Assembly (NCBI RefSeq): GCF_001956585.1 | Contig: NZ_MSRR01000004.1 | Span: 1 to 64,000 of the forward strand | DNA: 64,000 bases | Direction of reading: 5' to 3' | Source of the DNA: Actinomyces naeslundii | GTDB lineage: Bacteria; Actinomycetota; Actinomycetes; Actinomycetales; Actinomycetaceae | In this document: positions 29,948 to 33,498 of the stretch, piece by piece | How positions within the stretch are numbered: the stretch's first letter is position 1 | How the letters are laid out: every line of letters starts with the position of its first letter | Program-made: the position numbers and the translations under genes | The notes under the pieces: generated by a model | Database searches by the model: none | Told to the model about the DNA's origin: nothing | What the model saw: the letters and a program-made list of their open reading frames with translations, nothing else

Positions 29948-30937
29948 TCAGCCGAAGTGGGGACGGTTGGGGTCCGCCTGCCAGGAGGTGTAGGAGGAGG
30001 TGACGATGTCATCCAGGTCGTGCTCGGCCTTCCAGCCCAGGACCTCTCCGATGCGGGTGGCATTGCCGATGAGCTGGGGCGGGTCTCCCGCGCGGCGGGC
30101 GAGCTCCTCGGGCTCCAGGTCCAGTCCCGTGGAGGCGATGACCTTGGAGACCACCTCGCGTACCGAAGCCCCTTGGCCGGTGCCCACGTTGAAGATGTGC
30201 TCGGCCATGTCCTGACCACCGGCCAGGTAGTCCAGGGCGGCGATATGAGCACCGGCGAGGTCCTTGACGTGGATGTAGTCACGCACGCAGGTGCCGTCCG
30301 GAGTCGGGTAGTCGGTGCCGAAGATCTTGGGGGTCTCACCCTTGGAGAGCCGGTCGAGCACCATGGGGATGAGGTTGAGGGTGGCCATGTCCCCCAGGTC
30401 GTCCCAGCCGGCGCCGGCGACGTTGAAGTAGCGTAGGCCGGCCCAGCGCAGCCCCCAGGCCTTCTCGGCGTCGGCCATCATCCACTCCCCGATGAGCTTG
30501 GTCTCGCCGTAGGGGTTGATGGGGCGGCATTCGATGTCCTCGTCCACGATCTCCACCGGGGGCATGCCGTAGACGGCGGCCGAGGAGGAGAAGATCATCT
30601 GGTCGACACCGGCCGTCTCCATGGCCAGCAGCATGTTCGCCAGGCCGCCCACGTTCTGCTGGTAGTACCAGGCGGGACGCTCCACGGACTCGCCCACCTG
30701 CTTGCGGGCGGCGAAGTGGATGACGGCGGTGACGCCGCGCGAGCTCATGACCTCGGTGAGGGCCTCGGTGGCCTGGCCGCTGGCGACGTCGAGCTCGACC
30801 ACATCAGCGCCCTTGACTCGCTCAGGAGTCCCGTAGGAGAGGTCATCGACGACGACGACCTCCTCCCCGCGCTCGAGGAGAAGTCGGACCACGTGCGCGC
30901 CGATGTAGCCGGCGCCTCCTGCAACGAGAATGCTCAT
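29948..30937 (-). CDS. galE: UDP-glucose 4-epimerase (GalE)
   Basis: The 329-residue product has GGAGYIGAHVV at 6-16, HFAARKQVGESV, the SSSAAVYG stretch, YGETK with the catalytic Tyr and Lys, and LRYFNVAGAG. It interconverts UDP-glucose and UDP-galactose, possibly also the N-acetyl forms, and would supply galactose units for the nearby glycan. ATG 30937 is six bases after TAGACT, a leaderless layout. It is convergent with the LCP genes. Confidence 0.95.
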   Translation of the reverse strand: MSILVAGGAGYIGAHVVRLLLERGEEVVVVDDLSYGTPERVKGADVVELDVASGQATEALTEVMSSRGVTAVIHFAARKQVGESVERPAWYYQQNVGGLANMLLAMETAGVDQMIFSSSAAVYGMPPVEIVDEDIECRPINPYGETKLIGEWMMADAEKAWGLRWAGLRYFNVAGAGWDDLGDMATLNLIPMVLDRLSKGETPKIFGTDYPTPDGTCVRDYIHVKDLAGAHIAALDYLAGGQDMAEHIFNVGTGQGASVREVVSKVIASTGLDLEPEELARRAGDPPQLIGNATRIGEVLGWKAEHDLDDIVTSSYTSWQADPNRPHFG

Positions 30938-30949: not shown

Positions 30950-31045
30950 CACACACTCGCCCAGAAACGAACAGAAACGAACGTGAGATCAACGTGTCAG
31001 TGAGTTCCTCATCCAGGCTCCCGCATGCCCGTGTACACTGGCACC

Positions 31046-31099
31046 ACAACACCCCCCAGGCCTCTTACTCACCAGAGCACGCCCAAATCGGGGGGTTTT
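31046..31099 (+). ncRNA. Candidate small structured RNA upstream of the Abi gene
   Basis: A run of six C (31052-31057) can pair with six G (31090-31095), which are followed by TTTT, so the 3' end looks like an intrinsic terminator. A smaller stem (CTCT 31062-31065 with AGAG 31074-31077) fits inside. TACACT at 31034-31039 could be the -10 box, though no -35 match is obvious. AbiF-family genes are known to carry a conserved noncoding RNA immediately upstream; placement and compactness fit that, but I could not compare it with the Rfam model. Confidence 0.45.
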
Positions 31100-31113
31100 A
31101 CATGCCAACACCC

Positions 31114-31119
31114 TACAAT
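31114..31119 (+). promoter_or_regulatory. Putative -10 TACAAT of the Abi gene
   Basis: TACAAT is six bases before ATG 31126, the leaderless layout seen elsewhere in the window. That ATG is in frame with the typical Abi N-terminus but reaches a TAA after five codons (31141-31143). Confidence 0.5.
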
Positions 31120-31180
31120 TAGAGGATGATCCCTCCGGCCTAACATTACGATAAACCGGCGCTCAACGAGAACGATCTCA

Positions 31181-32137
31181 TTGAGCGCTACATTGAACAT
31201 TGAACGTGGCCTCACCATCACGGACCAGAACCGCACCGTCAGATACCTCCGACATATCGGATACTATCGGCTCTCCCCCTACACAATCCCCTTCCAGGTC
31301 GATCGAACCACCCAATCCTTCAGCCCGGGAACCACCTTCGATGGCATTCTCTATGTCTATGTATTTGATCGACAACTGCGTCTCCTGACAATCGACGCCC
31401 TTGAGCGCGTCGAGGTCGCTGTGCGCGCCGCACTGTCCAACACGATGTCAACACACGGCGAAGGCGGAGCCTTCTGGTACCAAAACGCCTCCAACTATCA
31501 AAGCCGCAAAGGATACTCCACAACGATTGAACGCATCGAAGCCCTGACAGGACGCGAACGGCAGCGCACTCCCTCAGATCGCAGTGAACAGGTGGATCGC
31601 CTCCACTACCCCGATGCTCTCTCGCACTACCTCGACACCTACTCATCTCCAGCGACACCGCCGTCCTGGCTAGTCATCGAGCTACTCACCGCTGGCGAGC
31701 TTCAGCATCTTTACGCCAGCCTGGCCCCCAAGTATCGCAAAACAATTGCGCGAGAGCTCAATCTCCCTGACCAGGTGCTGCAATCTTGGTTCAAGACCTA
31801 CGTGAGGGTGCGCAACATCTGTGCCCATCACGGACGCCTCTGGAACAGATTCCTTGGCGTATATCCAGTAATCCCAAAAAGCAGAACAGTCCGCTGGCTC
31901 AACGAACGCAGCGTCTTCGATACCAGCAACCCAAGAGCCTTGGAACGAAAGAGGCTCTACCCTGTTCTCGTCTCTCTTCAGTCAATCTTGTTCACCATCA
32001 GCCCGCACTCAACGTGGGCTCTGAGACTGCACAGTCTTTTAGGGAAGTACCAGCGCATCCCACTGAATGCCCTGGGAATGAAAGCCAACTGGGACACCGA
32101 CGAGTTCTGGCAAGAAGCTTTCGAGGCTGGCTCGTGA
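31181..32137 (+). CDS. Abi family (Abi_2, AbiD/AbiF-like) HEPN protein, 5' end disrupted
   Basis: The open frame from TTG 31181 gives 318 residues with Abi_2 motifs: YLRHIGYYRLSPY near 22-34, FDRQLRLLTIDALERVEVAVR, and RNICAHHGRLWNR with the HEPN RNase signature R-x4-H at Arg211 and His216. Abi_2 proteins are HEPN toxins in phage defence; AbiF relatives are reported as toxin-antitoxin systems with an RNA antitoxin and as possible ancestors of Cas13. The normal N-terminus is encoded in another frame (31144-31197: HYDKPALNENDLIERYIE), separated from the rest by a duplicated 7-mer. It follows a TAA and has no start codon of its own, so the original protein is probably not made; a version starting at TTG might be. 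GC content is clearly lower than in the neighbours, suggesting transfer. Confidence 0.8.
   Translation: MSATLNIERGLTITDQNRTVRYLRHIGYYRLSPYTIPFQVDRTTQSFSPGTTFDGILYVYVFDRQLRLLTIDALERVEVAVRAALSNTMSTHGEGGAFWYQNASNYQSRKGYSTTIERIEALTGRERQRTPSDRSEQVDRLHYPDALSHYLDTYSSPATPPSWLVIELLTAGELQHLYASLAPKYRKTIARELNLPDQVLQSWFKTYVRVRNICAHHGRLWNRFLGVYPVIPKSRTVRWLNERSVFDTSNPRALERKRLYPVLVSLQSILFTISPHSTWALRLHSLLGKYQRIPLNALGMKANWDTDEFWQEAFEAGS
31192..31205. repeat. 7-bp tandem duplication ATTGAAC x2 causing a frameshift
   Basis: Removing one copy joins the two frames into a continuous Abi-like N-terminus (LIERYIERGLTITDQ), so the second copy looks like a recent slippage event. Confidence 0.8.
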
Positions 32138-32180: not shown

Positions 32181-32246
32181 TCAATTCTGCAGCCGCTCGC
32201 GCAGGGCAGCGCCCTTGGCGTGGGCGACCTCGCCGAGGTCCTTCTG
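32181..32246 (-). repeat. Duplicated purE 3' end (displaced copy)
   Basis: Bases 32200-32246 are identical to 32975-33021 inside purE, and the similarity continues with mismatches to about 32187. Read on the minus strand it encodes the PurE C-terminus from [13 protein letters not shown] to RERLQN followed by its own stop at 32181-32183. It is the remnant of a purE end, now separated from purE by a protease gene. Confidence 0.85.
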
Positions 32247-32303
32247 GGACAACTTCGGCCGGCACCGAGCGCAGACTCCCGCCCGATCAGCACAGGTGGC
32301 AAG

Positions 32304-32309
32304 TAGGCT
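32304..32309 (+). promoter_or_regulatory. Putative -10 TAGGCT, leaderless start at 32316
   Basis: TAGGCT is six bases before ATG 32316 of the CPBP protease gene. Confidence 0.45.
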
Positions 32310-32315
32310 GGCTCA

Positions 32316-32867
32316 ATGGCTGAACTCGTCCTGCTCTGTTTGCCGACCATCGTGTATCTCATCGCACAGTCACGTGGACAGGATCGCAGGTCAGGCTTCA
32401 GAGCCGCGTTGGCTCGCGCGGGAGTTTCCTGGGGCTCTCCTGCAGGCTACGGCTGGGCGCTGCTCGTACTGCTCCTGCTGATGCTGACAGCCTGGCTCCC
32501 TCTTGCCCTCATACCCGCCGACGTGCAGGACAAGCTCGGCCTATCCATTGCTCGACTCACCTCAGTAGGAACGGCCATCGGAATCACGCTTCGGGCCGTC
32601 GGTGAGGAGGTCTTCTTTCGTGGGCTGCTCGGCGGAGTGCTCATGAGGCGGCTCAGCTTCAGATGGGGCAACCTCCTCCAAGCCACCATCTTCCTCGTAC
32701 CGCACGTGGCCCTGCTGCTGCTCGACGTACGACTGTGGCCGCTCCTCCCCGCGCAGTTCGCCGCAGGATGGCTGCTGGGATGGCTGCGCCACAAGACCGA
32801 CACGTTCGTTCCCGGTGCAGTGTTGCATGTCATTATCAACATCACGGTCGGACTCCTCACCGCTTGA
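32316..32867 (+). CDS. CPBP family intramembrane glutamic endopeptidase
   Basis: The 183-residue membrane protein carries the CPBP (CAAX protease/bacteriocin-processing, 'Abi') motifs: Glu97-Glu98 with Arg102 in EEVFFRG, His130 in FLVPH and a third histidine in HVIINI. Five or six hydrophobic segments surround them. Such proteins process peptides or confer bacteriocin immunity. It is shorter than many relatives, lacking some N-terminal helices. It lies between the two copies of the purE 3' end, so it looks like cargo of a small integrated cassette; no integrase gene is present. Confidence 0.88.
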   Translation: MAELVLLCLPTIVYLIAQSRGQDRRSGFRAALARAGVSWGSPAGYGWALLVLLLLMLTAWLPLALIPADVQDKLGLSIARLTSVGTAIGITLRAVGEEVFFRGLLGGVLMRRLSFRWGNLLQATIFLVPHVALLLLDVRLWPLLPAQFAAGWLLGWLRHKTDTFVPGAVLHVIINITVGLLTA

Positions 32868-32955: not shown

Positions 32956-33498
32956 TCAGCCCTGAACGCGCTCCCGCAGGGCAGCGCCCTTGGCGTGGGC
33001 GACCTCGCCGAGGTCCTTCTGAAAGGCTCGCATGGCGGCGGCCAGGCGGGTGGCCTCCTGGCTCTCACCGGAAGCGAGGATGCGCACCGCGAGCAACCCG
33101 GCGTTGCGGGCCCCGCCGATGGAGACCGTGGCCACCGGCACCCCGGCGGGCATCTGCACGATGGACAGCAGTGAGTCCATGCCGTCGAGGTACTTCAGCG
33201 GCACCGGCACCCCGATGACCGGCAGCTCGGTGACGGCCGCCAGCATCCCGGGCAGGTGGGCCGCTCCCCCGGCGCCGGCGATGATGACACGCAGTCCCCT
33301 CTCGGCCGCAACGCGCCCGTAGTCGATCATCTCGGTGGGCATCCGATGGGCGGAGACGACGTCGGCCTCATAGGCCACGCCGAACTCGTCGAGGACCTCG
33401 GCGGCGGCCCCCATGACCGGCCAGTCCGAGTCCGAGCCCATCACGATGCCAACCACTGGACGGGTCCTGTCCGTCGCCGTTCCGCTGACCCCACTCAT
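32956..33498 (-). CDS. purE: 5-(carboxyamino)imidazole ribonucleotide mutase (PurE)
   Basis: The 180-residue product shows the class I PurE motifs: [13 protein letters not shown] at 17-29, SAHRMP and [15 protein letters not shown]. It moves the carboxyl group of N5-CAIR to give CAIR in purine synthesis, after PurK. Its 3' end is duplicated at 32181-32246, and the current last codons (VQG) differ from the displaced copy (LQN), so the end of the gene was probably supplied by the inserted cassette. It lies 50 bases downstream of purK. Confidence 0.95.
32962..33021 (-). repeat. Duplicated purE 3' end (copy within purE)
   Basis: This is the partner of 32187-32246: 47 bases are identical and the flanking 13 are similar. 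Together they bound about 775 bases containing the CPBP gene. Confidence 0.85.

Follow-up and report, generated by a model that had tools for sequence, protein, structure and literature searches.

What remains of a toxin–antitoxin pair once its toxin gene is broken? This question is raised by a locus in a 64,000-nucleotide stretch of Actinomyces naeslundii DNA (the window; its genome is G000 in our set), where a gene of the AbiF family, a proposed ancestor of Cas13, stands behind a compact RNA element. The features of the locus are as follows.

29948..30937, minus strand: galE-like NAD-dependent epimerase gene (PF01370, 4e-53; galE is our own name for it), left border of the site
31034..31039, plus strand: putative -10-like hexamer TACACT upstream of the RNA, identical in three aligned relatives
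31052..31096, plus strand: abiF RNA (antitoxin RNA), from Rfam RF03085 and stems that covary across relatives
31090..31099, plus strand: 3' arm of the RNA stem and T4, a probable built-in terminator, read from the sequence; the T-run is kept in three relatives
31126..31203, plus strand: disrupted 5' end of the abiF coding sequence (ATG at 31126, stop at 31141-31143, duplication at 31190-31203), from the sequence and its alignment with three intact relatives
31181..32137, plus strand: what is still open of the AbiF toxin gene (Abi_2), 318 codons starting at TTG, from PF07751, 8vz6 and the ORF
31811..31828, plus strand: HEPN RNase motif R-N-I-C-A-H (R211, H216), aligned with the R-x4-H of PbAbiF
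32956..33498, minus strand: purE (AIR carboxylase; PF00731, 5e-62), right border of the site

The identity of the protein was established by profile and structure matches. The 31181-32137 ORF matched the Abi_2 profile PF07751 over positions 1-184 of 184 with 168.8 bits, against a cut-off of 25.6 (E = 2.1e-49), and PDB entry 8vz6 ("Abi family protein") over query residues 7-311 (4.4e-49). The PADLOC model AbiD matched the protein as well (4e-56), while an NCBIfam search of it gave no match. As a result, the Abi_2/AbiF HEPN assignment made by a sequence-only reading of this DNA held up in the very HMM search that it had proposed; its R-x4-H at Arg211 and His216 was recovered in this ORF in alignment with PbAbiF, and the low GC content that it had remarked on amounts to 55.6% for the gene vs 68.4% for the window. 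Its statement that the gene stands alone is right for the locus, but the genome has a second Abi_2 gene on contig C42. As for another gene family, the ORF gave one weak Homeodomain match only, below the cut-off of that family.

The RNA was identified as well. The Rfam covariance check suggested by the same reading gave a match of RF03085 to 31052-31096, with 39.1 bits against the gathering score of 37 and with 37 of 37 model positions covered (E = 0.0014 across the window and 8.7e-6 across 401 bases); the compact C-run/G-run element with a T4 end seen there earlier is thus an abiF RNA, in which a C6/G6 stem is followed by T4. Two covariance models of our own scored it at 66.4 and 47.3 bits, with the window among the seeds of each, and the folding energy of 31047-31100 (-18.4 kcal/mol) was equalled by 2 of 200 shuffles. 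A chance match is ruled out by the Rfam cut-off, the shuffles and the covariation described below. The Abi_2 match starts 145 nt downstream on the same strand. Over its 45 nt, the RNA differs from the A. johnsonii copy at 2 positions and in T-run length, and from the A. oris P6N copy at 3. A generic sigma-70 promoter scan made no call at TACACT (31034-31039), and a generic terminator scan made none at the 3' stem and T4 (31090-31099). We also considered the solo RNA as a terminator for purE or galE and discarded this, as its stem and T-run face the plus strand and both genes lie on the minus strand (judged by eye).

How an intact locus would work can be outlined from published relatives. In the accessible text of two papers, AbiF is an RNase-type toxin that acts as a dimer and is bound and neutralised by its RNA (PMC12373285; PMC12737573); the C. 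difficile toxin is neutralised by its RNA in cis and in trans (PMC12373285), and PbAbiF likewise by its own (review, PMC12737573). These sources, as far as they are accessible, cover toxicity, RNA neutralisation and termination ahead of the gene for relatives (PMC12373285; PMC12737573), in agreement with the earlier suggestion of an AbiF-family toxin with an RNA antitoxin. By analogy, a promoter directly upstream of intact copies would make a short RNA that would end at a terminator built from its own C/G stem, read-through past this terminator would make the toxin mRNA, and the RNA would bind the HEPN RNase dimer and block the RNase.

We then compared the coding region with the loci closest to the window protein, those of A. 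johnsonii CCUG 34287 (93%; taken to be our G014), A. oris P6N (87-88%; taken to be G040) and G022 (81%); these nearest loci point to an oral Actinomyces from the oris/naeslundii/johnsonii group. All three have an intact frame of 334 residues with R-N-I-C-A-H, starting from the ATG that corresponds to window position 31126, 26 nt past the T-run. The comparison in related strains that had been proposed thus produced intact copies behind the same RNA in three relatives, and the suspected break of the 5' end was established against them: in the window, the frame from ATG 31126 meets an in-frame stop at 31141-31143 after five codons and, about 21 codons past the ATG, is shifted by a tandem duplication of 7 bp (31190-31196 / 31197-31203). 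The ORF from TTG 31181 is without 22 N-terminal residues present in the relatives. Through the stop and the duplication, the window copy lacks the intact toxin reading frame of a functional type III-like system, and full-length toxin would not be expected in this genome because the frame is broken twice.

Considering the Rfam, Pfam and PDB matches, the intact orthologues behind the same RNA and the two separate lesions, we regard the window locus, with a probability of roughly 0.85, as a known type III-like pair of AbiF and abiF RNA in which the toxin is broken and the RNA is intact. An alternative is that the TTG 31181 ORF still makes a working, N-terminally shortened AbiF and that the pair is functional: its 318 open codons hold the whole Abi_2 profile and R211/H216, and it has the same number of amino-acid changes relative to G040 (39 of 311 codons) as the intact G014 (39 of 311). 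We consider this unlikely, as 22 residues of the relatives are missing, the alignment with PbAbiF starts at residue 7 of the query and residue 22 of the chain, and the start at TTG 31181 is putative. That the lesions are sequencing or assembly errors is very improbable; the genome is indeed a draft of 47 contigs, but the two lesions within one gene are of different kinds, and RNA-only or remnant loci also occur in the one-contig genomes G004, G020, G026 and G029.

The site itself was found to be conserved. The galE-like gene is present in 49 of 49 genomes of the genus, purE adjoins it in 46 of 49, and the RNA and toxin of the three intact relatives occupy the galE-purE interval, as in the window. 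Between abiF and purE, the window also has a CAAX-protease-like gene (32188-32867; PF02517, 1e-13), preceded by an apparent copy of the purE 3' end; since it is missing in the three aligned relatives, it is probably an insertion with a duplicated border.

A search of the 49 genus genomes with our second RNA model gave 16 matches in 15 genomes, of which we counted 15, leaving out the match in G011 (26.6 bits; coding-like by eye); in a separate search, the weak matches L230 (18.5 bits, away from galE), the second of L190 (11.9) and L209 (11) were likewise left out before counting. The RNA precedes an intact toxin in three cases (G014, G022 and G040), a broken or remnant toxin in nine (G000, G006, G008, G015, G020, G021, G037 and two matches in G048), and no toxin match in three (G004, G026 and G029). 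Repeated toxin loss with the RNA kept is thereby established, and the decay in progress suspected earlier proves real and belongs to a wider pattern, with an intact toxin at only 3 of the 15 loci where this RNA class occurs in the genus. The G006 toxin has one frameshift, in a draft genome, and the G021 break lies close to a contig end, so that these two may be assembly faults. Behind the first RNA of G048, about ten toxin codons are left (by eye), and behind the second a stop falls within the Pfam match; G020 retains a toxin remnant of 39 residues. The RNA-bearing genomes G004, G020 and G026 gave no PF07751 match. By eye, G026 has a stretch like the last codons of the toxin beside purE. At the G008 site (L220), internal deletions have cut the toxin, leaving open a 166-codon frame without the R-N-I-C-A-H stretch, whose shortened product could be a bound but dead protein.

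At the galE-purE site of the 49 genomes, the RNA is present in 11, together with an intact toxin in 3, a broken one in 4, a remnant in 1 and none in 3. Our searches found neither RNA nor toxin at 36 of the 46 sites readable across, and the RNA is therefore not indispensable there; three sites are not readable across (G001, G021 and G047), although G021 still shows the RNA. Stricter filters applied to searches over 40 genomes. Six further RNA-bearing genomes were found in the family (213 genomes), with Abi_2 behind the RNA in G098, G149 and G189 and none behind it in G126, G148 and G173. The class (394 genomes) added six more, with Abi_2 in G301, G366, G525 and G580, a short remnant in G326 (by eye) and none in G376. 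Toxin-linked copies are thus commoner beyond the genus (7 of 12).

Is the RNA maintained without its toxin? For three pairs of broken or toxin-less loci, RNA identity is 34/37, 43/43 and 39/41 (gap columns left out), whereas the four-fold-site identity of the neighbouring genes is 0.63, 0.82 and 0.69 (binomial 7e-5, 2e-4 and 5e-5), a comparison that also fits an RNA conserved only until each recent toxin loss. A fourth pair, G020/G021, has an RNA identity of 40/45, without a four-fold value for comparison. These comparisons argue against erosion of the RNA but leave the toxin losses undated. In the window, four-fold-site identity to A. johnsonii is 0.91 for the toxin vs 0.73 for the neighbouring genes; because the toxin exceeds its neighbours, this suggests an exchange of the abiF cassette between lineages and a recent break, and the window RNA would therefore have had little time for decay.

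This recency is what the main rival for the bacterial loci builds on, namely that the toxin died recently by chance, that the RNA is merely uneroded and that bacterial solo RNAs have no function. Some relatives have also lost everything; at the G035 site (L198), only the stretch around the -10-like element is left (by eye), and both RNA and toxin are gone. We hold such a passive relic to be a serious possibility, if one with somewhat less than an even chance, since three toxin-less rows keep the RNA with diverged flanks and need three changes on a purE/purK/galE tree of 46 genomes (2,136 columns from three genes beside the site, not whole genomes). It also leaves unexplained the covarying stems of toxin-less RNAs and the solo RNAs in 53 viral contigs of 28 flank groups. 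The chance that the solo RNA functions as a free-standing antitoxin we put only just short of even. In the window, the RNA and the -10-like element are intact, and the RNA would presumably still be made, as a solo RNA.

The RNA could instead serve another AbiF of the same genome in trans, in keeping with the second Abi_2 gene of the window genome and with Abi_2 matches elsewhere in G029, G148 and G173. We judge this improbable: the C42 gene is accompanied by an RNA of its own with a different build, and G004, G020 and G026 have the RNA but no PF07751 match. The C42 gene (C42:5783-6583, L033) is apparently open and, by eye, is preceded by a compact C/G-stem RNA-like element of the CCGGCCAGGCCT...AGGCCGGGGCC type; similar forms also precede Abi_2 in G022, G030 and G042, and the element before the C42 gene was absent from the Rfam results for the genome. 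Such variant forms, at C42 and at several other Actinomyces Abi_2 loci, are missed or weakly scored by our models, which catch one abiF RNA class, and our counts refer to that class.

We next turned to the RNA family as a whole. The first model, built from 11 seeds, found the RNA (E <= 0.01) at 64 of 80 loci fetched for the protein, 9 of the 80 being seeds. One identical 36-nt RNA sequence was present at 19 of the 60 loci read out, in 15 genera of Actinomycetota, and the proteins of these 19 loci are 46-52% identical to that of the window. In an alignment of 46 sequences, broken-toxin loci included, both partners vary in 5 of 9 pairs, and pairing holds in 95.4% of cells, vs 33-66% with the partners slid. 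These covarying stems support the published view of a structured RNA partner of AbiF. Similarly, among 58 toxin-less or remnant RNAs (50 phage or viral and 8 bacterial), both partners vary in 5 of 9 pairs and 97.6% of cells pair, with none of the slid controls above 51%; this alignment had been fitted to the model and is thereby biased towards the structure. Their conserved loop letters resemble those of the 46-sequence set. Of six RNAs folded against shuffles, L087 was no more stable than its shuffles (48 of 200 as good).

Furthermore, the RNA occurs alone in phages. Three pattern scans of IMG/VR, with exact patterns that select certain RNA forms, gave 68 contigs with abiF RNA. A profile built from 71 Abi_2 proteins placed Abi_2 within 2.5 kb downstream of the RNA in 4 of them and found none there in 53; the other 11 are too short (under 900 nt). 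The 53 toxin-less contigs fall into 28 groups by flank similarity (largest, 12 contigs), and 4 of them have a tRNA gene within 600 nt of the RNA. The RNA model found all 41 of the 53 loci given to it, the 12 omitted being mostly near copies, and 10 of 11 IMG/VR loci submitted passed the Rfam cut-off, L248 falling below. The L248 RNA shares its flanks with that of the bacterial genome G376; by eye, it is flanked by a tail-like gene on one side and, on the other, by a small gene preceding a tape-measure-like gene of 1200 codons. We also observed one near-identical solo RNA with similar upstream sequence in L267, L276, L294, L311 and other IMG/VR contigs and, on one viral contig fragment, a DUF3800-VIII RNA (Rfam; L273:66-140) with a solo abiF RNA about 4 kb away.

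A 48-nt query run against INPHARED (E <= 10) matched 72 of 50,697 records, 53 of them Mycobacterium phages, and 21 of the 72 matches cover at least 80% of the query. When the window's own RNA was searched against phage records there was no match, and an actinobacterial RNA gave 5, none above 80% of the RNA length. We examined nine records, namely the Aeromonas phages PZL-Ah8 and T7-Ah, Acinetobacter phage Acj61, mycobacteriophages Baka and Bromden, Arthrobacter phage Mimi, cyanophages S-CREM1 and S-SZBM1, and Salicola phage CGphi29. Eight of these nine RNAs passed the Rfam cut-off, with Mimi below. The RNA lies between connector and scaffold genes in PZL-Ah8 and T7-Ah, overlaps the beginning of a gene annotated as hypothetical in Baka, and stands between tRNA genes in 4 of the 9 (Mimi, S-CREM1, Bromden and S-SZBM1; L319, L320, L321 and L323). 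Among the nine records viewed, only that of S-CREM1 annotates the RNA. PF07751 matched none of 25 sequences (the nine records and 16 whole viral contigs, which may be fragments). Solo RNAs in phages are thus established, in that the phage records carry abiF RNA without Abi_2, as a decoy would; this requirement does not apply to the window.

Since several related bacteria and many phages have the RNA but not its toxin, the RNA may be useful alone as a shield against the toxin. A phage making abiF RNA would neutralise the AbiF of its host, and a toxin-less bacterium keeping the RNA would be protected when plasmids or prophages bring in AbiF. We give even odds to the broader reading that abiF RNA is widespread as a toxin-less gene, acting as an anti-AbiF decoy in phages of several families (T7-like Aeromonas phages, T4-like Acj61, cyanophages, and mycobacteriophages Baka and Bromden) and as an anti-addiction or immunity RNA in bacteria such as Actinomyces, with the window as a fresh case. 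If abiF RNA is indeed spread alone by phages, AbiF would be under phage pressure in nature, abiF RNAs would be natural AbiF inhibitors ready for use, and the part of the RNA in the path from AbiF to Cas13 could be studied apart from the toxin. The locus offers a clean test of the fate of an antitoxin after toxin loss. In the accessible portions of the open-licence literature searched (including PMC9964418, PMC12197685, PMC12165695, PMC12737573, PMC12804078 and PMC12948488), we found no proposal of solo abiF RNAs as anti-AbiF agents.

Finally, the locus can be set beside known systems, as described in the available parts of the respective papers. AbiF/RCd22 of the C. difficile prophage phi027 (PMC12373285) likewise combines an Abi_2 HEPN toxin with an upstream abiF-motif RNA that ends in a terminator and that can neutralise the toxin both in cis and in trans; RCd22, however, has two abiF motifs and a full length of 132 nt, whereas the window has one motif of about 50 nt and a broken toxin. 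PbAbiF-AbiFr (PDB 8VZ6; Zilberzwige-Tal 2025, via PMC12373285 and PMC12737573) shares the aligned protein, the matched R-x4-H and one RNA per monomer but, unlike the window, is a functional pair and not a solo RNA. On the phage side, the lytic cyanophage S-CREM1 has an abiF RNA between tRNA genes (PMC9964418) and no Abi_2 match in its record; its authors, in the text available, name no specific role for the RNA (PMC9964418), and its role is called unconfirmed in PMC12197685. A precedent for the proposed decoy is the pseudo-ToxI RNA by which phage PhiTE escapes the type III system ToxIN (PMC3475682). There, too, a phage-encoded RNA imitates a type III antitoxin and so overcomes a suicide system of the bacterium, but it consists of ToxI repeats and concerns the ToxN toxin, whereas the phage abiF RNAs, as putative decoys, are single structured motifs of another family.
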